The position numbers and the translations under genes are program-made. From Mytilus galloprovincialis (lineage: Eukaryota; Mollusca; Bivalvia; Mytilida; Mytilidae), in contig NC_134844.1 in NCBI RefSeq assembly GCF_965363235.1, forward strand, positions 78,895,244 through 78,959,243: DNA of 64,000 nucleotides, given 5' to 3'. The number at the start of each line of letters is the position of its first letter. The first letter of the stretch is position 1. The notes below the pieces were generated by a model. That model did no database searches, had not been told where the DNA came from, and worked only from the letters and a program-made list of their open reading frames with translations. This document shows positions 11,901 through 60,426 of the stretch, piece after piece.

Positions 11901-14900
11901 CACTGGCAACAACAAAAAATCGATAATTTAAAATAGGTTGTTTACATACAAATTACCAAGAAACGTAAGATTCAACTTCCTAGGACAAAGTAGACCTTAT
12001 AGATGGATTTAAATATGTTTTAACTGCACTTTGGTCAAACACTTCTTTAATTGTTTTGTTCTTATTTTGCTTGAATTTCAAATTCAGTTTCAGCGTTCCG
12101 TATGTGAATTCTTTACTTCAAATTCAGCGTTTAACATTGTACTGGTTTTTCGAGAGCGACATTGGTGTACGGCCAAAAATGGGAAAAATCCATCATGCAG
12201 CTGACAGTGTGGCTTCTCTTTGCACGCCCCATTCTGACTGGGTGTACATGTGAACTTTTAGTTTGCTAAAAGTCGATTGTCGTACGATAACTTCAAAATA
12301 CCCAAATAACAAAATGCAAATACGGGACAGTAATATCCTTTAATACAAAAACATCTATTCCTTTTGTTTACTATAATAAAACAGTGGTTGATTTAGAACC
12401 TATAATGGAGCTACGTGTATGATAACCAGTCCAAACGATAGCAACCATTTTACTTTAAAAGTGGGGTGAGGTTGTTTTGTCGAAGCGCTAATAATTTTAT
12501 TAAGTTTTTCATCGCCATCAATCAACTTGTCTGGTTCAAAATTTAACACTAAAAGGCATGAATAATTTTTCTTTTGTCCTCTTCTGGCACAGAATATTAT
12601 ATCATCAAATTAGGGATCAGAATATTTTAATGTACCATTATATCGAAGCCCCTAGTGGTAGTATCAAGTAAAAAACAGGTACTATCTAAATATTGGTTCC
12701 CCAGAAGATTACCATTTATCGCTGATAAAAACTTTTGAACACAATTTTCAACTTTCAAAATGCCGACACCTACAACTGGATAGATGGGTGCTTAATGTAG
12801 TACAGCGGCAACTATTACATAAACATGAATGCAAGTTGGGTGCTTAATGTAGTACAGCGGTAATTATTACATAAATATGAATGCTCGAGAAAATAATGTT
12901 TATGGTATACGTTTATATATGATATGAAAGGTTTCAACTTTTACAAAACCAGAGCTATACGTTGGATGTAAAAGTTTACTTTATTTGGCCTTTTCAATTT
13001 TATTTGACTTTATTTGCCTTTTTAACTTAATTTGGTTCGAGTGTCAATGATAAGTCTTTTGTAAACGAAACGCACGTCTGGCGCAAAAACCGGCAAAATT
13101 TATATTCCGGTATCCATCTATGATGAGTTTTTGTAGATACCTTGTAACAGTATCTTGGCTCCAATTTGCTGATATTGGATCCTATGACCGTCCTAATTTC
13201 AGCGTAAAAAAGATTATATTTAAAACCTCCCACACTGTGGTCTAGCACAACCTTAAACCATGCATTCAGTATCATGAAGCGCTTTTCTTGATCGACCTCC
13301 TTACGGAACGCCTAAAGCTGAATATTTAGGGCAAACAACTTACAAAGAACAGATAAAAACGTTTAAGATGATCTTTCATTCTGTACATGAAATGATATAT
13401 TCTTTAGCCAACTTGATTGCAGAAAGTAAGAAGTCGTAAAGCAAAACAGAAAAAAAAATGAAATCAAAAGAGATAATACATCGTGTATTGGGCCTTTTTA
13501 TGGCTTAGAGTTTAGTAGAAAATGTATATACATGCTCAACATAACCATACTATTTGACCTACTGCGAGTTGTTCAGTTTTTACTGTTACTCCTGTTTCTC
13601 CTAAAATATGGGTGCTAGAAAAACCAGCAGGTAAAATGGTCAATATCAGAGCCGTACGTCTGGTTTTGAAATGAATTATCTTCTTTTAAGAAATATTAAT
13701 TTTGTCATCCAATTTTTCACCGCTTTCAACTCTCCGTTTTATTTCATACATAAACTTTTAAGTATCAGTATGTTTTTAATTCATATTGTTTCGTTTCGTT
13801 CCGCTTTTATTTCGTTTCGCTTTTTACAGGTATCCCTCTTATTGCCCCTTTTCTATTTTGATATTTTAAGCAAACATTTAAAAAATCAAACTTTCAAAAA
13901 GTGAAATAATCAAAATTGCGCGTTAGGTTTAGTATTTTAAAAGTTTGGTCAAATTTCTAAACTATCAAATTTATAAACGATATTTAGAATTTTGATATTT
14001 TAATAATTTGGTTAAAATTTCAAAATTTCAAACCTTTAACACAATTTGAAATTTTGATATTTTAAAACTTTGATCAAAATTCCAAAAATCTAAAATTTCA
14101 AAACTTTTTAAAACTTTGAATTGATAAGTGTTACACGGACCACATATAGTCAGAACCGATTCATTGAAACACATTTTATTTCATTCAATTGAGAGGCCTT
14201 AACACTGATAATAAATGTTGTTTGATCTTTTCTTCAGAATGACGTGAGACAATTTGTAGAGGGTGAAGTAAAGAATTATATTGAACCATTGAAGATTTCT
14301 GAGTTTGTATCCAACCATCTTCGTCGCCACAGACGTGATGATGATGAGATGCCCAACTACTTAGATCACTTTTATGGCGGACTTGGTAAGTAATTTGTAT
14401 CTATATTTCTTGATATATCGGATATTGAATGACTAGCTGTTCTTGTCTTATATCCAAAACCACATATTTTATTTATCTTCTAAAAGGCATATATTCGAAA
14501 GTCCCATGATACCTTTAAATATACCTAAACAAGAATGTGTCCACAGTACACGGATGCCCCACTCACACTATCATTTTCTATGTTTAAAGGACTGTGAAAT
14601 TGGAATAAATTCTCTAATTTGGCATTAAAATTAGAATGATCTTATCAAAGGGAACATGTATACTAAGTTTCAAGTTGATTGGACTTCTACTTTATCAAAA
14701 ACTACCTTGACCAAAAACTTTAACCTGAAATTTGCACTATCATTTTCTATGTTCAGTGAACCGTAAAATTGGGGTCAAAACTCTAATTTGGCATTTAAAT
14801 TAGAAAGATCATATCATAGGGCACATGTATACTAAGTTTCAAGTTGATTGGACTTCAACTTCACCAAAAACTACCTTGACCAAAAACTTTAACCTGAAGC

Positions 14901-16064
14901 CAAAAACTTTAACCTGAAATTTGCACTATCATTTTCTATGTTCAGTGAACCGTAAAATTGGGGTCAAAACTCTAATTTGGCATTTAAATTAGAAAGATCA
15001 TATCATAGGGCACATGTATACTAAGTTTCAAGTTGATTGGACTTCAACTTCATCAAAAACTACCTTGACCAAAAACTTTAACCTGAAGCCAAAAACTTTA
15101 ACCTGAAATTTGCACTATCATTTTCTATGTTCAGTGAACCGTAAAATTGGGGTCAAAACTCTAATTTGGCATTTAAATTAGAAAGATCATATCATAGGGC
15201 ACATGTATAGTAAGTTTCAAGTTGATTGGACTTCAACTTCATCAAAAACTACCTTGACCAAAAACTTTAACCTGAAGCCAAAAACTTTAACCTGAAATTT
15301 GCACTATCATTTTCTATGTTCAGTGAACCGTAAAATTGGGGTCAAAACTCTAATTTGGCATTTAAATTAGAAAGATCATATCATAGGGCACATGTATACT
15401 AAGTTTCAAGTTGATTGGACTTCAACTTCATCAAAAACTACCTTGACCAAAAACTTTAACCTGAAGCCAAAAACTTTAACCTGAAATTTGCACTATCATT
15501 TTCTATCAGTGAACCGTAAAATTGGGGTCAAAACTCTAATTTGGCATTTAAATTAGAAAGATCATATCATAAGGAACATGTGTACTAAGTTTCAAGTTGA
15601 TTGGACTTCAACTTCATCAAAAACTACCTTGACCAAAAACTTTAACCTGAAGCGGGACAGACGGACGAACGAACGAACGAACGAACAGACGGACGAACGG
15701 ACGCACAGACCAGAAAACATAATGCCCCTCTACTATCGTAGGTGGGGCATAAAAAAAACTTTAACTTTGGAGTGGAACAGATGATAGACGAACAGACCAA
15801 AAAAAATAATGCTCATAGATGGAGCATAACATGTAGACAATGGAACGTCATGTATTACATCACCAATAAAAATTATAGTAATTTATTATATGAGCGAACA
15901 TGCACTAATATATGGTTCTCTTTATTATAATTTCAAAGATAACCGATTACTCTTTTTCAAACGTTTAAATTGGCTTAAAATGGCCGCCAATCATATTCGA
16001 GGTTATATTGAATCTGTGTAAACGGTTCATAAATGTGCATTATTTCTTTTTTATAGGCAAATAA
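8946..16064 (+). CDS. Small secreted prohormone-like protein, 133 aa, spliced
   Basis: Coding exons are 8946-9012, 9481-9562, 9858-9954, 14238-14385 and 16057-16064, all with GT-AG ends and consistent phases (1, 2, 0, 1). The start ATG is followed by a hydrophobic signal peptide (MFQIFAVCLFTSMVFG), probably cut near residue 16-17. Residues 18-110 are charged, Lys/Glu-rich and probably helical, with no cysteine. At about residue 112 comes LRRHRR, which contains the furin-type site RHRR, then DDDEMPNYLDHFYGGL followed by GK and stop. In secreted precursors, GK at the end is trimmed and the glycine turned into an amide, so the likely product is a 16-residue amidated peptide. I do not recognise the family; it could also be an immune or structural secreted protein. 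Intron 3 carries a 3.6-kb inverted-repeat structure and intron 4 a 189-bp tandem array. Gene structure is well supported; the hormone role is inference. Confidence 0.75.
11392..11520 (-). repeat. Interspersed repeat, GGAGTTTAGTATGGCG family, diverged copy
   Basis: On the minus strand it reads CGGAGTTTAGTATTACG followed by AGGGGCCAGCTGAAATACGC, matching the better copies at 17455-17720 (plus) and 38326-38545 (minus). Confidence 0.6.
12786..12890 (+). repeat. Two-unit tandem duplication, 52-bp period
   Basis: The block GGGTGCTTAATGTAGTACAG starts at 12786 and again at 12838, each followed by CGG, AA/TTATTACATAAA and ATGAATGC. Two copies only, with few differences, so the duplication is recent. 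Confidence 0.8.
13018..13160 (+). repeat. Interspersed repeat with CGAAACGCACGTCTGGCG core
   Basis: Contains AAGTCTTTTGTAAACGAAAC, then GCACGTCTGGCG and TATCTATGATGAGTTTTT-like wording (CATCTATGATGAGTTTTTG), an order of words that recurs in bivalve genomes. Only this copy is seen in the window, so the family call rests on memory. Confidence 0.45.
14530..15765 (+). repeat. Tandem-cored interspersed element with six ~189-bp units
   Basis: The element opens with AAGAATGTGTCCACAGTACA and ATGCCCCAC and closes with GTGGGGCAT, so short inverted ends are present. Between them a unit beginning TTTGCACTATCATTTTCTAT repeats at 14731, 14920, 15109, 15298 and 15487, an exact 189-bp spacing, after one more diverged unit. 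The middle units each carry a small extra duplication of AAAAACTTTAACCTGAAG. A run of GACGGACGAACG-type simple repeat precedes the right end. The copies at 17848-18297 and 33757-34237 have only two core units. It lies in intron 4 of the secreted-peptide gene. Confidence 0.9.
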
Positions 16065-16257: not shown

Positions 16258-16727
16258 AATGATAAAAATTCTTTTTGTTTCCACATAACATTCTATACAT
16301 TCTTCGGTGTGTAACCGTTCCTTCAAGATATCCAGACAAGTTAGGGGAATAATAAGCAAGCAATAGACGATTTCAATTTTTTACGGCAGGTTACCTTCTC
16401 TGGTGTAGGACATTCTAATATTTTGGTAAAGATCAAGCAGCAAAAAGAAGTAAAATCAAGCTTAAGATCTGTATAATTTTAGGGGGAAATAACTGTTTTA
16501 TGTACGTTTTCTAAACAAGAAACAAATCAACAATATCCAGATTACATAACAGGATGGTTGTATTTTCCATAGAAGTTTCAATGTTCAGATTTATTGTTGT
16601 TTTCTCCACCTCCAGTGGCAAATATGTCATGCATATCCAGGACGAGAACAAATAAACAATAAATACAATAAGTGGGATTTCAAAGTGGGTAATGTTGCAT
16701 ATCAACACACCAAATTTGGACATTTCT

Positions 16728-17215
16728 CAAGGGTCCACTAACATGCTTTGAGGATGCTTTCTCAATGGTCAAATAACATGCCTTGAGCATGCTTTCTCAA
16801 TGATCCACTAACATTTTTGAGCATGATTCCTCAATTGTCAACTAACACGTTTTGAGCATGCGTTTTTAATGGTCCACTAACATGCATGAGCATGCTTTCT
16901 CAATGGTACACTCGAATGCTTTATCAACAATCCAAAACCATGCTTTGATCATGCTTTCTTAAGGGTCAACTAACACGCTTTGAGCATGCTTTCTTAATGG
17001 TCCACAACCATGCCTTGAGCACGCTTTCTCAATGGTCCACTACCATGCTCTGAGCATGCTTTATCAATGGTCAACTAACATGCTTTCTCAATGGTCCACT
17101 CACATATTTTGAGCATGTTTTCTCAATGGTCCACTAACATGCTTTGAGCATGCTTTCTCACTGGTCCACTAACATGCTTTGAACATGCTTTCTTAATTGT
17201 CAACTAACATGCATT
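16728..17215 (+). repeat. Minisatellite, ~35-bp unit with CATGCTTTGAGCATG core
   Basis: About fourteen imperfect units of the form GGTCCACTAACATGCTTTGA then GCATGCTTTCTCAAT. Each unit carries the partly palindromic core CATGCTTTGAGCATG. Units differ by point changes and small gaps (GGTCCAC or GTCAAC, CTCAAT or CTTAAT). Confidence 0.9.
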
Positions 17216-17847: not shown

Positions 17848-18297
17848 GAATGTGTCCATAGTACACGGATGCCCCACTTGCACTATCATTTTCTATGTTC
17901 AGTGGACCGCGAAATTGGGGTCAAAATTATAATTTGGAATTATAATTAGAAAGATCATATCATAGGGAACATGTGTAATAAGTTTCAAGTTGATGTAACT
18001 TTAACTTCATCAAAAACTACCTTGACCAAAAACTTTAACCTGAACTTCGCATTATCATTTTCTATGTTCAGTGGACCATGAAATTGGGGTCAAAACTATA
18101 ATTTGGCATTAAAATTAGAAAGATCATATCATGGGGAACATGTGTACTAAGTTTCATGTTGATTGGACTTCAACTTCTTCAAAAACTACCTTGACCAAAA
18201 ACTTTAACCTGAAGCGAATGGACGGATGCACAGACGGACGAACGGAGGCACAGACTAGAAAACATAATGCCCCTCTACTATCGTAGGTGGGGCATAA
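17848..18297 (+). repeat. ATGCCCCAC...GTGGGGCAT element, two core units
   Basis: Same family as 14530-15765: it begins AAGAATGTGTCCATAGTACA, has two core units of about 180 bp, a GACGGACGAACGG run and the closing CTACTATCGTAGGTGGGGCAT-type end. Confidence 0.9.
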
Positions 18298-32000: not shown

Positions 32001-35000
32001 TCTCTCATTTGATGGTATAACAGATTTTGATTTAAATTGATTTTTGGTGTTTAATTGCACTTTCAAACCTATTGGCTATTTGGTGCCAGTAAGTTTTTAT
32101 TGTTAAGAGGAAGCCAAAGTCTCCTGAGAACAACCACCATTTGGCAGGATAGCTGATAAAACTAGTCAATTAATATGTGGGGTTCAAAATCACAATCTCA
32201 GTATGGATTGGCTTGTGGAACAGTAGTTGAACTATATACTTGGCCATCAAGGCCCTTGTAAAATAGAAATCCTAGCAAATTCAGTGGTATCTCTTACAGT
32301 GCAAGAAAACAAGCTTTAATTAATTTTGTGTTAACTCACATCCCATATTTTGATTGTTTTGTCCAAGATAAACTGTCCATCACTCTGTGTAGACGTAGGA
32401 TTATCTGATACATTTGACTGCGATGAATTTATAGACATCTGTGATGGCTGTGATCTGTAAATAAAAATAATATGTGGATTTTAAAATAATAAAATGTGTC
32501 TTATTTTCATGTTTTTCCAAAATAATGTGTTTCATTTTCATCATGTTCATGATTTTCAAAAATAACAATTTTTCTAATTTCAGTTCTAGTCAACATTTTT
32601 GGAATGGAGATATGCATAGACCCAGGTGAGCTTAGACTGAACAGCAAAAATAAAACAGAGAATAATTTGAAATAAAAACAATTTACTTATTTAGAAGAAT
32701 TTGTAAAGATTTTCAACATTTTCACACATATTCAAACGATAACTTTCAGGCCTAAAAGTAATTTGCCGTTTCAGAATCTAATGCATTCTGGGAAATATTT
32801 TGAAAAGCATACACCAAAACTTGGTGATAGGTTTAAAACGTGATAAATAGAAATTCAACCATTGACGTAACATTATTTTCATTTTGGTGTACGAACAATG
32901 AGATTACCCATAGTCCTTTAGATTCTGAAAAGGTGAATTGAATGTATCTGTATATAAACTTGAAGAAACAGAACCCAGAGCCCTGAACATATGAAAATTA
33001 ATTCAGTTGTTGTTGTTTCTTGCTACTTGTCGTATTGTTTTGAACTAAAATAAGACGCAAGTTTTCTGGTTAAATCGTTTTACATTTGTTATTTCTGGAC
33101 TTTTGTAGCTTGATAGGAGTTACAGATTTTGCTCAATAATGAAGGCACTACAGTGACCTAGATATGTTTACTTCTACATCATTTGGTCTGTGGGGGAGAG
33201 TTGTCTAATTGGCAATCATACCACATATTTATATTAAGATAAGTAAATTATCAACACATCTCTTTCAAAACTATACCCGACATTTTGTAATGTTCTCGTT
33301 ATCTCTTTAGCAATCATACCATATCTCCTTATATTTATATTAAGATGTATAAGCCTCTATCAAAACTTTACCTGACATTTTGTAGTTGTTCTCGTAACTT
33401 TGCAATCTCTGTCCGTAGCTTGTTATTGTCTCCGACAGTCATCTGATACTGCATTCTTATTTGTGCAGCCTCCATTTCACTTCTCCTCCTGCCCTCTTTT
33501 TCTTTTTCTAAGTCCTGGAGAGCTCTATCCCTTTCTGTAGTATCTACAACCTAAATATTGAACTTGTAGGTAAACATGGTAAAAACAATAAAGTGATTTT
33601 TGAATAAAAACTCAAGGTAATGCTAAACCATTAAGATTAATTCCTCCAACATGTGCATTCTCTTCAAAAGATTGAGAGGCAGAAGACCCCACCAGGATAG
33701 TCCAATATGAAAATAATTCTCCAAATATCATGGCAAAAAACTAACAAACAATCAAACAAGAATGTGTCCAAAGTACACGGATGCCCCACTCGCACTATCA
33801 TTTTCCATGTTCAATGGACTGTGAAAATGGGTAAAAAATATAATTAGGCATTGAAATTAAAAAGATCATATCATAGGGAACATTTGTACTAAGTTTCAAG
33901 TTGATTGGACTTCAACTTCATCAAAAACTACCTTGACCAAAAACTTTAACCTGAAACTCGCACTTTCATTTTCTATGTTCAGTGGACCGTGAAATAGGGG
34001 TCAAAAGTTTAATTTGTCTTTAAAATTAGAAAGATCATATCATAAGGAACATATGTACTAAGTTTCAAGTTGATTGGACTTCAGCTTCATCAAAAACTAC
34101 CTTGACCAAAAACTTTAACCTGAAGCGGGACAGACGGACGAACGAACGAACGGACAGACGAATGAACGGACAGACGGACGAACGGACGCACAGACCAGAA
34201 AACATAATGCCCCTCTACTATCGTAGGTGGGGCATAAAAACCAGAAGCTACAATGTTCCTATACTGAATATTATCATATTCGTACCAACCTTTAAACATT
34301 TAGCATACAACACTCGAATGTCTTGTCTTTTAGCTTTAGAATTACACTGAGGGCACTTTCCTCCTTGACCTTTCAACCATTTATCTATACAACTAAAAAT
34401 AAATTACATTGTCATTGATATTACATTTCAAAAATCTGTAACTTACCTGCAAATGTTTAAAATAACCACGAGGGAATTTATGCACAAACAGACCAGATAA
34501 ATCTGTTTTGCTTGCCATAAGAATTTTGAAACTAATAATCTTTGTTTTTTTATTTAGTTTTTTGGTTCTTAAAGTTTATTGAAATACACATATGAAAGTC
34601 TGAAATTTTATTTGTTCCTACTTTTCTACATTTTCCAATTACAATGCCATCAAAACAGATCCTTGAAATCTATATTTCTCCTTATCACAATCTTATCTTC
34701 AATCATGGAGTAAGATGTTTTCAAGATCTTTTTTTAATGTTGAATTGCTGTCTCCTTGACATATTCACATATCTATATTCATATCAACAAAAGTTAATCA
34801 CAAGTTTATATGTAGAATTATAGCGTATAACTACCTCTGTCCAAAAAGATGGCCACATTTTAATGAAGCTAGTCTGTGATTACCAGAACTTGTCCATTCT
34901 TCAAAACATATAGGACAGCACTGAAACAAAATGTATTTGTGCATTTTTAATTGTATAAATACTATTTGGATAGCAAATGTTTTTTCTCCTAAGGCTAAGT

Positions 35001-45839: not shown

Positions 45840-46975
45840 TGTCGAGCCTTCGACTTTAGTCGAAAAAGCGAGACTAAGCGATCCTACATTCCATCGTCGT
45901 CGGCGTCGTCGGCGGCGTCAACAAATATTCACTCTGTGGTTAAAGTTTTTGAAATTTTAATAACTTTCTTAAACTATACTGGATTTCTACCAAAGTTTGA
46001 CAGAAGCTTGTTTATGATCATAAGATAATATCCAGAAGTAAATTTTGTAAAAATAAAATTCCATTTTTTCCATATTTTACTATAATTGGACTTAGTTTTT
46101 TCTGCGGGGGGACAAAACATTCACTCTGTGGTTAAAGTTTTTTGAATTTTAATAACTTTCTCAAACTATCCTGGGTTTGTACCAAACTTGGACAGAAGCT
46201 TGTTTATGATCATAAGATAATATCCAGAAGTAAATTTTGTAAAAATAAAATTCCATTTTTTCCGTATTTTACTTACAAATGGACTTAGTTTTTTTCTGCG
46301 GGGAACCATTACATTCACTCTGTGGTTAAAGTTTTTAGAATTTTAATAACTTTCTTAAACTATCCTGGGTTTGTACCAAACTTGGACAGAAGGTTGTTTA
46401 TGATCATAAGATAGTATCCAGAAGTAAATTTTGTAAATAAATAAATCCATTTTTTCCATATTTTACTTTTAAATGGACTTAGTTTTTCTGCGGGGAATCA
46501 TTACATTCACTCTGTGGTTAAAGTTTTTAAAATTTTAATAACTTTCTTAAATTATCCTGGGTTTGTACCAAACTTGGACGAAGCTTATTTATGATCATAA
46601 GATTGTATCCAGAAGTAAAGTTTGTAAATAAATAAATCCATTTTTTCCATATTTTACTTTTAAATGGACTTAGTTTTTCTGCGGGGAACCATTACATTCA
46701 CTCTGTGGTTAAAGTTTTTAAAATTTTAATAACTTTCTTAATTAAACTATACTGGGTTTGTACCAAACTTGGACAGAAGCTTATTTATGATCATATTAGA
46801 TTGTATCCAGAAGTAAAGTTTGTAAAAAGATTACTCCGTTTTTTCTGTAATTTACTTTTAAATGGACTTAGATTTTCTTACAATCATAAAATAGTAACAA
46901 GAGGAATATTTTTATTGATTTTTTTCCTCATTATTGTTGAGCCTGCAATTTACAGCAAAAATAGGCGAGACACTG
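45840..46975 (+). repeat. Tandem-cored element with five ~192-bp units
   Basis: Opens GTCGAGCCTTCGACTTTAGT and AGCGAGACTAAGCGATCC, then a CGTCGTCGGCGTCG run. A unit starting TTCACTCTGTGGTTAAAGTT follows at 45928, 46120, 46314, 46506 and 46697, a spacing of 191-194 bp. It closes with TTGAGCCTGCAATTTACAGC and GGCGAGACAC. Units are 90% or more alike by eye. It lies inside the candidate 9-kb element. Confidence 0.85.
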
Positions 46976-50970: not shown

Positions 50971-53900
50971 ATGTCAGATGAGAGAAATTTCCGTACATAC
51001 TACTACAAGAAGTTTGGAATAGGTGGAGTGGAAGAGAAGAAATCAATTGAAATACTTCTGAACGAGCATCCATTAAATGTTGATAAACTACGACAATTCT
51101 GTCTGATGTTCCAAGTGCCAGCAAAGTACAGAATATATTTATGGAAAGTTATTTTAGGTAATTTGTTTGATTAATATCATTTATCTTTGTTCGTTATGCA
51201 GTCTCGATTTAGTTATGAACAAAGAGCAATTATGATTTCTATAGTAGAGAATTCCACAAATGAAAAAAAGAAAAATACTCAGTCTCTCAGGGAGTCCAGA
51301 AGTAGGATCTGGATTGGGGGTCCTTTAATTCTGCATTCTTTATTGTTAAAGCCACTTATTCTTTATAAATTCTGACCATTATTTTTTATTCTTTAATTTT
51401 AGATCCCCTTGATTTTCTATTCTTTAAATTTTCCACGTATTTTTCAATAATCTTTATTTCTATAGCCATCTCTTCTGTAGTTTTGGCTCATTATTCTCTA
51501 TAAACCTTATTTCTGTTTGGAATTCTGTCTGAGCTGACCTGAACATCTGTCCTGCATCGACTGTTGACGTCATACAACAATCACTTTTCCATTGTAACGT
51601 CAGATATTTTGTATGATAATGTCAAAATTTTACGGGAACCTTTGTGATGTCTAGTAAATGTAATGGCAGACAAATAGCAATAAGGTCCAGACTCTCCACT
51701 AGTAGCACCCCTAGTAACACCTAATGTGTTACTCATTTCTAGTAAATTCTGAGGTGAGGTCCTAAATGAAAATAAAGTACTTTTCAGAGTTTGAAAACTT
51801 ACAATTGACAAAACAGGTTCATGTTATACATGTAAACATTTCGTTTTTTTAGGTATTTTACCATGTGGTCAAGGATCTCATGAATTTGTGATGGACCAAA
51901 GAAAACAACAATATAACGATTTACTTCATGCCCTTAAATTGATGAGAAGGGTAGATAACTCTACCACAGCAGGATTACTGGTTCTAAAAATGTATAAATT
52001 AGAAACTGGTATGCTGACTTTTGAAGAACAAGAATTAGTAAGTTTATATTACTATTTGGCCAGGGTTTTTGATTTGTTGGTTTACAGATTTTTCACATAT
52101 AAGGTATGGTTGGTCAGTCGGAAAAAAAAATACTCCTACAAGACATACCAATGATACAGTAAATAAATTGTAAAAAAATAAATATAAATTTCAGCTTACT
52201 AACAATATTTTTGATATGTTATTTGTTCATACTTCCTTAAATTTTAGTCCCAACTTTAGTGCTCAGTTATGTTAATTTTAACATACAACATGTACAACAT
52301 GTAAAATGTGTGCAAAAAATATAAACTTTATTCAAGACATTTTTGTTTTGCTTTTATTGGAGATTTTTGAAAAAAAACCTCTCATGCCTATACATTTGTA
52401 CATGCATTTCAAATGTTAACAAAGATATAATGTTTTTCCTCACTACCTGAAATCAATGAATCCACAGTAAAGTTTCTTGAAATTGTAAGTAAAAAATCAT
52501 AGAATCTCCACTGGGTGTGTGTGATAATTTTTACTATATTTTCAGGTGGACCCAGATGATATGGCTTTGTTTACTATCTCCACTGGGTGTATGTGATAAT
52601 TTTTACTATATTTTCAGGTGGATCCAGATGATATGGCTTTGTTTACTATCTCCACTGGGTGTGTGTGATAATTATACCCCCACTTTAAAAAAAAAAAAAG
52701 GGGGGGTATACTGTTTTACCTCTGTCTGTCCTTCCGTCAGTCCGTCCGTCCCATGAATATCTTTCGTCGCATTTTTCTCACGAACTACAAGATTTCTGAA
52801 ATTTGGTTTCAGGGTTTATATAAGTCTGCTACACCGTTTGATGCCTTTTCAGATTCATCACTCGACAACTTCCTGTTTACCGAACACTTGTATTATTTTA
52901 CACATGATAACCAAGTTGAAAATTTTAGTCACATTTTTCTCAGGAACTACAATACAAGGATTTCTGAAATTTTGTTTCAAGGTTTATATAAGTATGCTAT
53001 ACTGTGTGATGCGTTTTCAGATTCATCACTCAACAACTTCCTGTTTACCGAACACTTGTACTATTTTACTCATGATAACCAAGTTGAAAATTTCCGTCAC
53101 ATTTTTCTCGGGAACTACAATACAAGGATTTCTGAAAATTTGGTTTCAGGATTTATACAAGTCAGCTATACTGTGTGTTGGTTTTCAGATTCATCACTCG
53201 ACAACTTCCTGTTTACCGAACACTTGTATTATTTTACACATGATAACCAAGTTGAAAATTTCTGTCACATTTTTCTCAGGAACTACAATACAAGAATTTT
53301 TGAAATTTTGTTTCAAGGTTTATATAAGTATGCTATACCGTGTGATGCGTTTTCAGATTCATCACTCAACAACTTCCTGTTTACCGAACACTTGTACTAT
53401 TTTACACATGATAACCAAGTTGAAAATTTCCGTCACATTTTTCTCAGGAACTACAATACAAGGATTTCTGAAATTTGGTTTCAGGATTTATACAAGTCAG
53501 CTATACCGTGTGATGCGTTTTCAGATTCATCACTCAACAACTTCCTGTTTACCGAACACTTGCATATTTTACACTTAAAATTATCCACTTGCGGCGGGGG
53601 TATCATCAGTGAGCAGTAGCTCACAGTTTCACTTGTTTTTACTATATTTTCAGATGGACCCAGATGATATGGCTTTGTTTACTATCTCCACTGGGTGTGT
53701 GTGATAATTATACCCCTGCTTTAAAAAAGGGGGGGTATACTGTTTTACCTCTGTCTGTCAGTCCGTCAGTCCGTCCGTCAGTCCGTCCATCAGTCCGTCA
53801 GTCAGTCCGTCCCATGAAACTTTCGTCACATTTTTCTCAGGAACTACACATCCACTCTTTCTGTAATTTGGTATCAACATTTATATATGTCAGCCATACC

Positions 53901-56900
53901 GTGTGATGAGTTTTCAGATTCATCAGTCGACAACTTCCTGTTTACCGAACACTTGCATATTTTTACACTATTAATATTATCCACTTGCGGCGGGGGTATC
54001 ATCAGTGAGCAGTAGCTCGCAGTTTCACTTGTTTTAACTATATTTTCAGGTGGACCCAGATGATATGGCTTTGTTTACTATCTCAGAAGCTTTAAGTAAT
54101 ATTGAGGAAGATGATATTAATGTTTACTGGATTGCCAAAAAGTTTTATGAATATTTTCTGAAATGGAAGGAGCCAATTTTGAGTCTGGTTTGTAATTTTT
54201 GTAATTGCGTCTGTTTAAAATTGGCCCCTCCCTAAATCCGCCTCTGATATGTTTCTAAAAAAGAATTTCTGAATTTTTTTTCACAAACAAATTACCATAA
54301 TACATGTATCCCAAGTCAGGAATCTGATTTACAGTAGTTGTCGTTTATTTATGTAATTTATACGTGTTTCTCGTTTCTTGGTTTTTTATATAGATTAGAC
54401 CGTTGGTTTTCCCGTTTGAATGGTTTTACACTAGTAATTTTTGGGCCCTTTATAGCTTGTTGTTCGGTTTGAGCCATGGCTCTGTGTTGAACAGGTCGAG
54501 AACTCTAGATTTTCTGACGTCAGAATATATTTGCATAGTAATTTCCAAAACACAAGGGCAATATGGCCTTGAAAAACTGACCAATCGACTCAATGAACTA
54601 CAATGCATTGTGGGCTACTACGAGTAAACTAAAACTTAAAACACGTGGAATTAGTGGGAAAACAGTCAACTAATATAGTTGTCTGGGACTCTCATTACCA
54701 ATGTTTTTATTCTGCAAATATATTTAATGTAAAGTATATAACGTAATCCTCAATTTGCATGCTCTGATTAAAAAAATATTGTTTACTGGCTTCACGATTC
54801 GACTTTCTTTTTCGCCTTGCAAAAGTAGTTGAACCGGTTTTGTGCATTGTTATGACTTGAACCTGCATTAATTTCACGACATGAAACAGTGAAATATCCA
54901 ATGAAGTGACCACTGTCCAGTAAGAAAATAGTTTTAGCTCTTTTAAACCGGTATAATGTCATTCCAAAATCATTTCTGCCTAGAAAAACACGAAAACTTT
55001 CATTGAAACACTTCTTTCTGTACTGAATGTGTAATTTTTTTTTTATCAGGACCTGAACTAAAAGTAAGAATATCATAATATTCAGTATGCTAAAAATAAG
55101 TGTTATGAAAGCGGCAGGGGCGGATCCAGCCATTTTAAAAAGGGGGGTCCTAAACCTGGACAAAAGGGGAGGGGGTTCCAACTACATGTCCTCATTCAAA
55201 TGCACTGATCGTCCAAAAAAAGGGGGTCCATCCCTTCAGAACCCCCGCCCTCCTGTAGCGGGTACGGTATATAGCTCAAATCTTTTTGTTTTGTTTCATC
55301 CATCGATAATATCAGTTTATTGCCAATTTTATCACAAAAGGGGGGGTATACTGTTTTACCTCTGTCTGTCCTTCCGTCAGTCCGTCCGTCCCATGAATAT
55401 TTTTCGTCGCATTTTTCTCACGAACTACAAGATTTCTGAAATTTGGTTTCAGGGTTTATATAAGTCTGCTACACCGTTTGATGCCTTTTCAGATTCATCA
55501 CTCGACAACTTCCTGTTTACCGAACACTTGTATTATTTTACACATGATAACCAAGTTGAAAATTTTAGTCACATTTTTCTCAGGAACTACAATACAAGGA
55601 TTTCTGAAATTTTGTTTCAAGGTTTATATAAGTATGCTATACCGTGTGATGGGTTTTCAGATTCATCACTCAACAACTTCCTGTTTACCGAACACTTGTA
55701 CTATTTTACACATGATAACCAAGTTGAAAATTTCCGTCACATTTTTCTCTGGAACTACAATGTAGCGGGTACGGTATATAGCTCAAATCTTTTTGTTTTG
55801 TTTCATCCATCGATAATATCAGTTTATTGCCAATTTTATCACAAAATATACCTTAGAGGTTTTTTATCAATCGGCTGCTGTCCTGTTGACATATGTAAAA
55901 TATCTCGAATATTAAAACTATCTGGATCAAAGTGGGTGCCATATTACCTATTATTTTTTTTCTAAAACGTGCTTTGTATATAGAAATAAGAAGATGAGGT
56001 ATGAGTGCCAAATGAGACATCTTTCCAACAAAGACATAATTCAGTAAAGTAACTTCACGCAGTCATAGGTTCAATGCTGAAAAGTAAGCTATAAATGACC
56101 CAAAAATTACTTGTGTAAAACAATCCAAACAACAACAAAAAAAAAACCGTCCCAATTAAATATATCAAAGAAGAAGAAATCTATCCCATCAAAAAAAATT
56201 ATATTGTATAGGAGCCTGTATTTCAGTGGTTGTCGTTTGTTTATGTGTTACATATTTGTTTTTCGCTCATTTTTTTTTTAATATAATTAAGGCCGTTAGT
56301 TTTCTCGTTTGAATTGTTTTGCATTGTCATATCGGGGCCTTTTATCGCTGACTATGCGGTGTGGGCTTTGCTCATTGTTGAAGGCCATACGGTGATCTAT
56401 AAATGTTAATTTCTGTGTCATTTTGGTCTCTTGTGGACAGCTGTCTCATTGGCAATCATACCACATCTTTTCTTTTTTTATTATAGGTCCAACGCTGCAA
56501 TTTTCACAAAACATATCAAATTTTCCACCTTGTCGCACATACATATGGATAACATTATTACAGCTTATTTCCTACTGCATGTAGAGCAAAACTTTGGTTA
56601 GCTTGCTTACTTTGTTTTTATATTGTACAACATATTAAATATACAAGTTAAACTATGCCTATATATATATATTGTTTAAAGATTGTATAAACAACTATAC
56701 AAACAAAGTAGGCAAGCCAACCAAAGTTTTACATTGCAGGTATAAGAAATCAGCTGTAATAATTAATCCAGTTTGGCAAAAGTACGAGCCTGTTAAAAAA
56801 CGAACAAACTGAAACTACAGTTGCTGACTTCACTACCTTAAAAACAAAGGGAACAGTTTGGAAGTCACATTTACTGCAATGTGACAAAAATAAATACTAA

Positions 56901-59900
56901 CACTGCCATGCATGTAAATATTTCTTCGCCTTTTTTACGAACACAAAATTCAAGGATCACACATTTGTCTTTAATTATCTATACGAAAATTGATGTACTC
57001 GTGAATATTAGCACTGGCTGGTATGGACGGCTTATTCTTACACTAGTAAGTTTGTCTCATGGGTAATTGTGTTTTTCGTTGTTGTGTCGTTGCTGTCTGG
57101 TAGACGAATACATGAAATATCTGTGCCATCATCAAACATGTTAATGGCTTTATATCGGGTAATTCAAACCCTGTTTTCTTCGCATAGAAACAACTCTTCG
57201 TTAATCTGAGCATGGAAGTAATACTTTATATTACGAACTATAAATGAGGATACACAAAATGCAAAACTAAGCGAAATTGTGAATCCCGCATTGCACGAAA
57301 AAATGTGTTGTATTTCAGTAAATAACACATGTTCTTAGTTATTGTAAACACGTAGTAGTGCATCATGCATTGTGACTCATTTAGTGGATTGGTCAAAAAC
57401 CTAGGTAAAAATAAATTGCGTCACATGTAAATAAACAATTACATGTGCGAGAACATAAGTATGCTAATTTATGCATTTCCATATAAGGTAGTGGTCCCGA
57501 CCTGTTGAAGGCCGTACATTGACCTATAATGGTTTACTTTTATAAATTGTTATTTGGATGGATAGTTGTCTCATTGGCACTCACACCACATCTTCCTATA
57601 TCCTTATATATTATGAATGAAAGAACATAATCTGGTTTATTGAATTTAGTTAGTACACTGGGCAGATGTTCAGGGGATCTAGATTTCAGGCATCTTTAGC
57701 TGTTTCTGTGTGCACCATATAAATTCAGAAAACCATACAAGCAATGCCTTTAAACTTTTGGTATGCTACTGATGAAAATGAAAGTGAAGTGTTCTCATTT
57801 GCATGCAGTTCAAGAGTCTAATCCAAATTGGAAAATACCTTTTGTGTCAATTCCAATCGAACAAATTGAGATTACTTGATTTGATCTGTTACAATGATTT
57901 GATGTTATTAAGGTTTCTTGTTACAAAATGGAGGTCTGATTGATTGTGTTGAAATTGACTTTTGCTGTTCTGAGTTATGGCCCTGGATTGCATAAACAAT
58001 GACACTGATTATTTCGAAAAAAATCTTGATCGTTGTCGTTTTGACAGTCTCTTGTATAATATTGTATAAAGAAATTGGAAATTTAAAACAATATGACATA
58101 ATTTTTTATAATGACAAAAAATGATACCTATGGAATAAGGTTGAATCTATAAATGGCTAATTTTATTTCACAGACAGAAAAAGCTGTGAACAGCCTGAAG
58201 AAAGAGGACCCTAAGATTTGGCAGCACTTGAATCAACATGATATGTTCAGTATACTACCCCTCAGAGCCTGGTTCCTATCAGGATTTGCTGATATTTTAC
58301 CCAATACATCCATGGAAAGGTTTGGACTTTTGGATAACTTGTTTGTAGTCAGAAATATTGAATAAAAAACTTCTATAATTACCTAAGATGAATATCTGTC
58401 AGAGTATAATTGATAAATTTTATGACATTGGTTGCAATGTATTACCTTGATTTTTCAGTGAAAAAAAAACCCAATAATTTCACATGTGAAATAAATCTGA
58501 AAATTTCAATCCTCAAAGTCATGCAACAAGAGGTGTCTGGGTGTTGTCAAGATGTTGTTGATAATTTTGCATCAAAACAAATTGACAATGTCTTGAAAAA
58601 AATGTAGTTTCTATCATTTTCTACTTTATTTCAATCAGTATATTAAAGTCCATGGTCAATAATATAAAAAGATTAACTAATTCAAGAATTCAAATATCGA
58701 AACATATTCAACTTTATATGACAGATCAACACTGATATTTTTCTATATATTTGAAATCTGGGATAAGTTATTCTCAGTAAATTTTTGAAATTTAGCATAA
58801 ATATGATAAGAATTATTTTAGAACAATTGCAGTTGAATTATTTTTTTTCTGTTTTGATTTAATTAATTAGATAGACGTGAAATTAATATTTCAGAATATG
58901 GGACAAAGTGGTTGGAGGATCTTTTGCAGTTTTGGTACATGTAGCTGTTGCAATCTTCTTAACTTTCAAACGACCTCTGCTGAGTATGAACAACAGAGAA
59001 TCTATGTTAAAGTATTTATCAAAAGTAAGGAATTGTCTTGTATATAAAAGCGCACAGTGTCAAGTAAAATTAAAATAGATTAACCCTGCCACATGTGTAT
59101 GTTTCCCAAATTCTTAATTTTTGTCTTTCATGTCTTTTATAATACTTAGTGGTACTGGCAGATCCCAAATGCTTTTCTGACACCTGGTTAGAATGAGAAT
59201 ATTAAGTCCAATTTCCCTTTATGGGAGAGATTCATGCCTTAGTCATTCTTAAGAATCTTTCTCATTCACTCATAGTGCACCTTTTTAAAGCTAGGTCTAA
59301 GACTAAGCATACATACCCTTTTTTTCTGGTGGCAGTACACATTTCCAAAGCTTTATAAATTTTGACTAGCTTTACTGAAATATGCATAAGATAATTAAAG
59401 GTTCCTATTCTGAATATGCATATGATACGTAGATCTTTCCATTCTGAACATGAATAAGATAAATAAAGGTTCCCATCCTGTATGCATACTGTCCAAATAC
59501 TCAAATAGTCTAGAACATATACATGAGAGGTTTCCATCTTGAAAATACATATTTATATAAATTTAATATATTTATATGTTTTATCCTGAATATGCATACA
59601 ATAACTAATGGTTCCTGTCATGATTTACCTGAATTGCATAAGATAAAAACATTACAATTATGCACACACACAAAAAATGTAATCAAATATTATCTGTAGT
59701 ACATGTAGTACATTGTACTCTGAAAACAGTGTTTCATAAAAGATAGGATTATCTGCCTTTCCACACACACACTAAACAAAGAAAATAATTTGAACACAAG
59801 TACAACAACCATAAACTTATCCAATAACCCTTTAAAAAGTAAAATTTAAAGAATAGATAGTAGATCTTGCCTTTAATTTATTACTGTCAGTTTCTTACAT

Positions 59901-60426
59901 TTTAAACTTTTTTATGTTGATCAGATTTTTAGAGTTTTACAATAAAAATAAAAATGTGGTAAGGTTAAACCAGTTTGAGAAGCCAACATACAATCTGCTT
60001 TGCCTATCTAGACCAATTGTTGCAAAAGTAGAACACAAAATGAAGCCTGCACAGTTCAGCTACCAGCAGGATGACAACTTATTTGAACAATGGAATAAAA
60101 GTCGACACAGAATATGGAAAGCTGGAAATTGTGGTTGAGTTGCTGGGGAGAATAGATGTTAGAATTTCACAAAGTTGAATTTCATTGAATGTCATAAACA
60201 ATTTTTGGTCTGAAATAGACCCATAATAAACATGACAAATTATATTTATATATCAAGTGCTGATAACCCACTAATTTGATCTTAAATATTTTTCTATTGA
60301 TAGTTACCAGAAGATAGTGGAGATGTTGTGGTTGTCAAGGCATTAGATCTATGGCAACAACATGGAGGTCACCAGATGGTAGCAAGGTCTGATTCTCCAT
60401 TGTTTTCTGACCGCTCACCAAGCTGA
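50971..60426 (+). CDS. TBC1D7: TBC1 domain family member 7 (TSC complex subunit), 302 aa
   Basis: Six coding exons: 50971-51157, 51853-52037, 54050-54187, 58174-58319, 58895-59024 and 60304-60426; the total is 303 codons with the stop and phases agree (1, 0, 0, 2, 0). Human TBC1D7 is 293 residues. Matching landmarks: NFRTYYYKKFGIGGVEEKKS at the start, YRIYLWKVILGILPCGQGSH (residues about 53-72), YNDLLHALKLMRRV, then NVYWIAKKFYEYF (about 146-158), LPLRAWFLSGFADILP, RIWDKVVGGSFAVLV and VVKALDLWQQHGGHQ. TBC1D7 binds the TSC1 coiled coil, stabilises the TSC1-TSC2 complex and so restrains Rheb and mTORC1. An acceptor at 50884 (TTTTACAG) indicates an upstream 5' UTR exon. The exon 3 donor (CTG|GTTTGT) is weak, and intron 2 contains decoy copies of the exon 3 acceptor. 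Confidence 0.95.
52672..53632 (+). repeat. ATACCCCC-ended element with five ~168-bp core units
   Basis: Begins TATACCCCCACTTTAAAAA, GGGGGGGTATACTGTTTTAC and a GTCCGTCAGTCC run, then about five units starting near CATTTTTCTCAGGAACTACA, spaced 167-168 bp, and closes CCACTTGCGGCGGGGGTATC, ATCAGTGAGCAGTAGCTCAC, AGTTTCACTTG. It sits between GATAAT and TTTTTACTAT of the duplicated TBC1D7 intron end. Confidence 0.88.
53705..54030 (+). repeat. ATACCCCC-ended element, single core unit
   Basis: Same ends and same insertion point as the 52672 copy but with one core unit and a longer GTCCGTCAGTCC run. Sharing the exact insertion point shows that it arose by tandem duplication of unit plus element, not by a second insertion. 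Confidence 0.88.
54336..54500 (+). repeat. Abundant bivalve interspersed repeat
   Basis: Carries AGACCGTTGGTTTTCCCG, TTTACACTAGTAATTTTTGG and CTTTATAGCTTGTTGTTCGG, close to the copy at 2945-3175. It lies in TBC1D7 intron 3, 150 bp after exon 3. Confidence 0.7.
55256..55853 (+). repeat. Second-site copy of the TBC1D7 intron element, flanked by 90-bp direct repeats
   Basis: The segment 55343-55762 is nearly identical to 52701-53120, including private variants (CACGAACTACAAGATTTCTG, ACACCGTTTGATGCC). It has only the first two and a half units and lacks the normal right end. A 90-bp text beginning GTAGCGGGTACGGTATATAG stands on both sides (about 55256-55344 and 55762-55850). Confidence 0.85.
55983..56478. 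mobile_element. Interspersed element with opposed GTCTCATTGGCA ends
   Basis: The left part on the minus strand reads GATGTCTCATTTGGCACTCA then TACCTCATCTTC; the right end reads AGCTGTCTCATTGGCAATCA then TACCACATCTT on the plus strand, so the ends are inverted copies. The right half carries the GCCGTTAGTTTTCTCGTTTG and GTTGAAGGCCATACGGTG words. Partial 3' ends of the same family occur at 57487-57605, 33180-33240 and 18905-18965. Confidence 0.6.
56554..56763. repeat. Inverted repeat, two ~70-bp arms
   Basis: ATTATTACAGCT...AAAACTTTGGTTAGCTTGCT at 56554-56623 is matched, inverted, by GGCAAGCCAACCAAAGTTTT...AGCTGTAATAAT at 56695-56763, with about 70 bases between. It is likely a small MITE. In TBC1D7 intron 3. 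Confidence 0.7.

Follow-up and report, generated by a model that had tools for sequence, protein, structure and literature searches.

How does a conserved gene find its working splice acceptor when the same intron-exon boundary stands four times in a row? A locus of the mussel Mytilus galloprovincialis raises this question. It lies in a window of 64,000 bases (C7:78895244-78959243), the whole stretch of DNA analysed; the genome searched comprises 1,384,861,812 bases in 331 contigs. The gene is modelled with six coding exons, from 50971 to 60426, encoding 302 amino acids. This model matches two human TBC1D7 chains over residues 3-286: 9ce3_E (E 4.7e-72) and 3qwl_A (E 7e-72). When the whole genome was searched with the protein, six TBC1D7 exon matches came up, every one at this same locus. 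The predicted gene that carries the duplicated acceptors is TBC1D7, homologous over its full length and, as modelled, otherwise intact. Its parts are these:

50971..51157, + strand: TBC1D7 coding exon 1, from the ATG (gene model; match to human TBC1D7 structures)
51853..52037, + strand: coding exon 2, ending in phase 0, donor GTAAGT (gene model; protein match)
52038..54049, + strand: intron 2, at present 2012 nt (gene model)
54050..54187, + strand: coding exon 3 of 138 nt, starting and ending in phase 0, with donor CTG/GTTTGT at 54187 (gene model)
58174..58319, + strand: coding exon 4 (gene model; protein match)
58895..59024, + strand: coding exon 5 (gene model; protein match)
60304..60426, + strand: coding exon 6, including the TGA (gene model; protein match)

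Mussel exon 3 (46 codons) and its intron position agree with human exon 5, which encodes residues 128-173. The modelled donors at 54187 (GTTTGT) and 58319 (GTTTGG) are unusual, and were placed by protein continuity only.

The duplicated segment is a unit of 72 bp, made of 42 bases of intron and the opening 30 bases of exon 3. Repeat finders recover all four copies, in register and with a 72-bp period at 52504-52673. A sequence-only reading had described a row of copies at 52508-54085, without E1 and E2, the elements within units 3 and 4. The row is indeed there, as a four-copy array, but it runs from 52504 to 54079, or to 54084 if the terminal ATCTC is counted. From left to right it contains:

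52504..52575, + strand: unit 1, without substitutions of its own; its decoy acceptor has 52546 as first exon-like base (repeat finder, sequence comparison)
52576..52647, + strand: unit 2, with two substitutions of its own; its decoy acceptor has 52618 as first exon-like base
52648..52672, + strand: left part of unit 3, as far as the insertion point TAAT^T
52673..53636, + strand: element E1, HINE-type, 964 bp, inside unit 3 (family comparison, repeat finder)
53637..53683, + strand: right part of unit 3; its decoy acceptor has 53654 as first exon-like base, with G changed to A at +1
53684..53708, + strand: unit 4, left part, up to the identical TAAT^T
53709..54032, + strand: element E2, HINE-type, 324 bp, inside unit 4, of a lineage other than that of E1
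54033..54079, + strand: right part of unit 4, with 17 bases of native intron and the opening 30 of the true exon 3

The unit opens with ATCTCCACTGGG in intron 2 and closes with TTTACT in exon 3, just before ATCTCAGAAG. The intron and exon ends share the 5-bp microhomology ATCTC, through which the duplication was joined. Private substitutions over the 72 bp number 0, 2, 1, and 1 in units 1 to 4. This star-like pattern fits a rapid formation of the array with later drift, although just four substitutions over 288 bases do not allow its age to be dated. A search scoring its best candidates only matched the start of exon 3 to these four places alone in the 1.385-Gb genome; the exact decoy-acceptor pattern occurs three times genome-wide, always in this array.

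E1 and E2 interrupt units 3 and 4 at the same point, after TGATAAT (TAAT^T). Together with the three added units, the two elements have taken intron 2 from about 508 nt to its present 2012 nt. The left end of their family, ATACCCCCGC, is the reverse complement of the right end, GCGGGGGTAT, and is followed by GGGGGTATA; E1 and E2 have one mismatch each in these subterminal inverted repeats. E1 contains 168-bp central tandem repeats (4.7 copies, 52786-53574), and E2 a GTCC/GTCA microsatellite (53753-53812). Both carry a 3' palindrome: GTGAGC-AGTA-GCTCAC in E1; GTGAGC-AGTA-GCTCGC in E2. Lying just upstream of decoy 3 and the true acceptor, these palindromes fold as hairpins of -9.6 and -9.2 kcal/mol, respectively. 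The energies do not differ significantly from those of shuffled sequence (z -1.76 and -1.22); 11 and 23 of 200 shuffles fold equally well. The 17-base right-end motif has 1,727 exact copies genome-wide. The same marks are given as HINE hallmarks in the accessible portions of PMC4067079 and PMC7492417, and E1 and E2 are classed by them as HINE-type (non-autonomous Helentron) elements. Units 1 and 2, which serve as empty sites, show no target-site duplication beside the insertion point.

Further repeated sequence lies elsewhere in the window. Within intron 3, at 55255-55846, is a 422-bp piece of E1 with 5 mismatches in 426 aligned bases. On either side of it stands a direct repeat of 85 bp, at 55255-55339 and 55762-55846, the two being identical; the arrangement looks like the product of a template switch in replication or repair. 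Tandem arrays with a period between 169 and 192 bp lie at 14711-15653, 17876-18213, 33788-34124, and 45927-46878; some adjoin short GACG-type microsatellites and may be the central repeats of more HINE-like families. An array of 35-bp units (14.7 copies) occupies 16723-17212.

Are E1 and E2 one insertion or two? Their identities were ranked against 24 other full-length copies, all from a single strand of the loci compared. Between E1 and E2, identity is 89.8% at the right end, which ranks 25th of 25 (the lowest) from E1 and 21st of 25 from E2, and 92.6% at the left end (20th and 15th of 25). Each has closer relatives elsewhere: E1 at 98.9% (right end) and 97.7% (left end); E2 at 93.8% and 98.2%. 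Neither, then, is a recent copy of the other, and with the lineages distinct, two insertions at one point are the simplest account. Family target flanks, gathered with element-internal queries on both strands, have T at -4 and -1 on the left (26 of 27) and T at +1 on the right (19 of 20). The used TAAT^T site has the best 8-base core score within the 72-bp unit, with three other sites close, so a second insertion there is not far-fetched. By this core score it stands at place 193 of 127,948 window positions; by a 26-base score it stands at place 1,051 of 127,948 and second in the unit. (A stronger ranking, among the best of the window, was dropped: queries that include their own flanks favour look-alikes, and the effect shrank with internal queries.) The array thus consists of four 72-bp units from tandem duplication, with two HINE lineages at one TAAT^T of units 3 and 4.

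What does this leave for the splicing machinery to read? The extra acceptors at 52546, 52618, and 53654, all 5' of the true acceptor at 54050, are present as first described, each with a polypyrimidine tract and an AG. The copied stretch of exon had been put at 36 bases; exon sequence is indeed copied, but the shared length is 35 (30 of the unit plus ATCTC). The idea that the true acceptor is nearly identical to the decoys holds for the last 17 intron bases, where it has one substitution, and fails farther upstream. Because the transposons interrupt units 3 and 4, these 17 bases are all the intron that the four sites have in common directly 5' of the AG. Decoys 1 and 2 keep old intron upstream, and with it the natural branch region that had been ascribed to every copy; at decoy 3 and the true site this place is taken by the end of a transposon. 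Nor are these "four equal sites". Only the true acceptor leads into the 138-nt exon and the donor at 54187, which makes the contest between the sites uneven.

A simple yTnAy rule was used to list candidate branch sites. For the true acceptor these are -23 (TTTCAC, in E2) and the native -13 and -14; for decoy 3, -23 (in E1) and -13; for decoys 1 and 2, -13, -19, and -22, all of them native. Decoy 3 and the true site each have an AG-free stretch of 29 nt, decoy 1 one of 45, and decoy 2 one of 64. A branch-to-AG distance of 13 is below the usual range in animals, which favours the E2 site. With 17 native bases left before the true AG, the branch point of the true acceptor would most likely lie inside E2 DNA, another respect in which the sites are unequal. 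The tract is T-rich throughout in decoys 1 and 2; that of the true site has one T fewer. The region 5' of decoy 1 folds at -11.4 kcal/mol (9 of 200 shuffles are equal), a weak result by which such a fold could dampen decoy 1. Recursive splicing, with CAG/GTGGAC as acceptor and donor together, was considered and dropped: GTGGAC is a poor donor by eye.

A message spliced at any decoy would meet an early stop. The sequence-only reading had placed it at about residue 140, correctly: all three read-throughs end after 140 residues, as ...EQELVDPDDMALFTISTGCM from 52546, ...EQELVDPDDMALFTISTGCV from 52618, and ...EQELMDPDDMALFTISTGCV from 53654. In human TBC1D7, according to PMC3979717, TSC1 binding is disrupted by in-frame loss of either residues 66-127 or residues 128-173, and also by substitutions at V88 and L114. 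The predicted decoy product would keep the part matching human 66-127 and lose most of the 128-173 part and all beyond, so that a truncated form lacking the TSC1-binding part, as had been suggested, is only half apt. In classic work on duplicated acceptors, exon sequence and proximity settle the choice between them. Decoy-spliced messages are expected to be rare, as a decoy is followed by 35 exon bases only, and the full exon and donor follow the last unit alone.

The locus as a whole is probably best explained by a microhomology tandem duplication and two HINE insertions, with the last unit as the working exon 3 and the decoys as by-products. A duplication bounded by microhomology copied the intron 2/exon 3 boundary up to four 72-bp units, and E1 and E2 would have inserted independently into units 3 and 4. 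The last unit would remain the working exon 3, the end of E2 just upstream supplying its branch point. The decoys would be used rarely if ever, and early-stop messages would presumably be removed by nonsense-mediated decay. Since only the last copy opens into the full exon 3 and donor, the additions would mostly be tolerated; the duplicated acceptors of TBC1D7 are probably a tolerated accident. Several points count against this explanation: the polymerase reaches decoys 1 and 2 first, and these keep the old upstream intron and the richer T tract; the true donor GTTTGT looks weak; and a candidate native branch A is present at -13 or -14, within the 17 bases, though nearer the AG than usual.

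The shared position of E1 and E2 could also reflect one insertion, duplicated jointly with its unit, one copy then being replaced by gene conversion from another HINE. The identical insertion point in two units speaks for this history, which nonetheless seems unlikely. Differences between E1 and E2 reach base 9 at the left end and about base 14 at the right, so near both ends that a conversion tract must span nearly exactly the whole element, and the target preference of the family makes a repeat hit plausible. It is hard to credit that the elements themselves captured and spread the exon piece. Helitrons are known for capturing parts of genes, but units 1 and 2 are element-free, the unit ends at ATCTC and not at element ends, and the genome has no decoy acceptor pattern outside this array. 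Assembly errors are known to arise in tandem repeats, but an artefact is scarcely more probable: the units carry private substitutions and two different elements, and a diverged E1 fragment lies in the next intron.

If the decoys were used appreciably, TBC1D7 output would fall or a 140-residue form would appear. All three have an intact AG and tract and the early stop, and all lie closer to the upstream donor than the true site. Such use is nevertheless doubtful: the decoys lack an exon body behind their 35 exon bases, the gene itself is not broken, and there is no sign of selection keeping the decoys, one of the three having lost the G at +1. More doubtful still is a mini-exon, running from a decoy acceptor to a GT donor in GGGTGTGTGTGA. 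GT donors do follow every decoy, with an in-frame 45-nt exon (TGT/GTGTGA) for 52618 and 53654, and in the intron gain of the potato RdRp gene the same type of segment was duplicated and a cryptic donor recruited (accessible part of PMC4974935). Yet the available GT donors match the usual donor poorly, and 52546 has no listed in-frame option except position 0. The preferred explanation, then, is tandem duplication and two insertions, with a last unit that still works. The structure and history of the array are well explained by it; any function of the decoys is putative.

Do HINE ends stand before other acceptors? The pattern of a right end, 3-28 bases, and TTTYAGG occurs at 26 genome places, TBC1D7 included; at 22 of the 25 others an open frame of at least 22 residues follows. 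Eight of the 25, chosen by eye, were compared with solved structures, and four were supported: exons of kynurenine aminotransferase (E 4.1e-10), dynein axonemal heavy chain 2 (E 4.7e-10), and KIF15 (E 4e-5), and one WD40 exon (against a designed WD40 protein, E 1.1e-18; 1.6e-11 to cleavage stimulation factor subunit 1, residues 3-36). The other four gave two with no match and two weak ones (E 0.031 and 0.023). At the supported exons, the HINE ends lie 24, 29, 29, and 22 nt upstream, with the same TTTCAC at about -28 to -35; HINE ends thus do stand at the expected branch-point places of conserved genes. Among the pattern's places, L117, L119, L120, L121, L127, L134, and others have right ends no more than about 30 nt from acceptor-like sites that open into long frames.

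Enrichment of HINE ends before real acceptors is, however, unsupported by the controls. TTTYAGG occurs 26 times at 3-28 nt and 17 times at 60-85 nt, no clear excess. Within 3-28 nt it occurs 26 times against 11 for TTTYACG, where the window background is 45 to 22. Pfam support (E <=0.01) was found for 3 of 25 near sites (27 peptides) and, among 53 control sites (44 peptides), for no more than 4; 135 control sites had been found, and 82 inside HINE cores were left out before the count. What can fairly be said is that HINE insertions before acceptors are tolerated; a preference for such places is unsupported. It is a tentative idea that the HINE right end (the hairpin, then CAGTTTCACTTGT), when it inserts into the T-rich stretch directly 5' of an AG, might be a portable branch-point module, replacing the branch half harmlessly and repeatedly rebuilding host acceptors. 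If so, this rebuilding may let the last of the four TBC1D7 acceptors keep working.

Mobile DNA is known to give part of a splice site, as in Alu exonisation and introner elements. In contrast to these, the TBC1D7 element would give the branch side of an existing conserved acceptor, with no new exon or intron. Of the published cases found, the potato RdRp gene comes nearest (PMC4974935). It likewise has a tandem copy of an intron 3' part and the next exon 5' part, with branch site, tract, and AG; the TBC1D7 units also include tract, AG, and exon 5' part. The potato copy became a spliced exon, as 106 RNA-seq reads prove, whereas the TBC1D7 array is known from DNA alone. Moreover, TBC1D7 has four units, a stop after each decoy, and two transposons inside. 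The elements have published relatives: Cg_HINE (oyster), Pearl, and MgE (Mytilus) share with E1 and E2 the subterminal inverted repeats, a microsatellite of GTCY type, central repeats of 160-170 bp, the 3' palindrome, and T-rich insertion (available portion of PMC7492417). That portion mentions neither the E1/E2 family nor a splice-acceptor position, and the main text of the paper lacks "exon" and "splic". In titles and the starts of abstracts, with subscription journals mostly outside the scope, no branch-point role of HINE ends was described. A 3' splice site duplicated in tandem and a splice signal supplied by a transposon are of a known kind; new is the TBC1D7 variant, which combines both.

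If real in the animal, this array would be a natural competition among four near-identical acceptors in one conserved gene. RNA reads could show how distance, exon body, and branch point govern acceptor choice in TBC1D7. More widely, conserved acceptors may draw branch points from a transposon that is common in bivalves.
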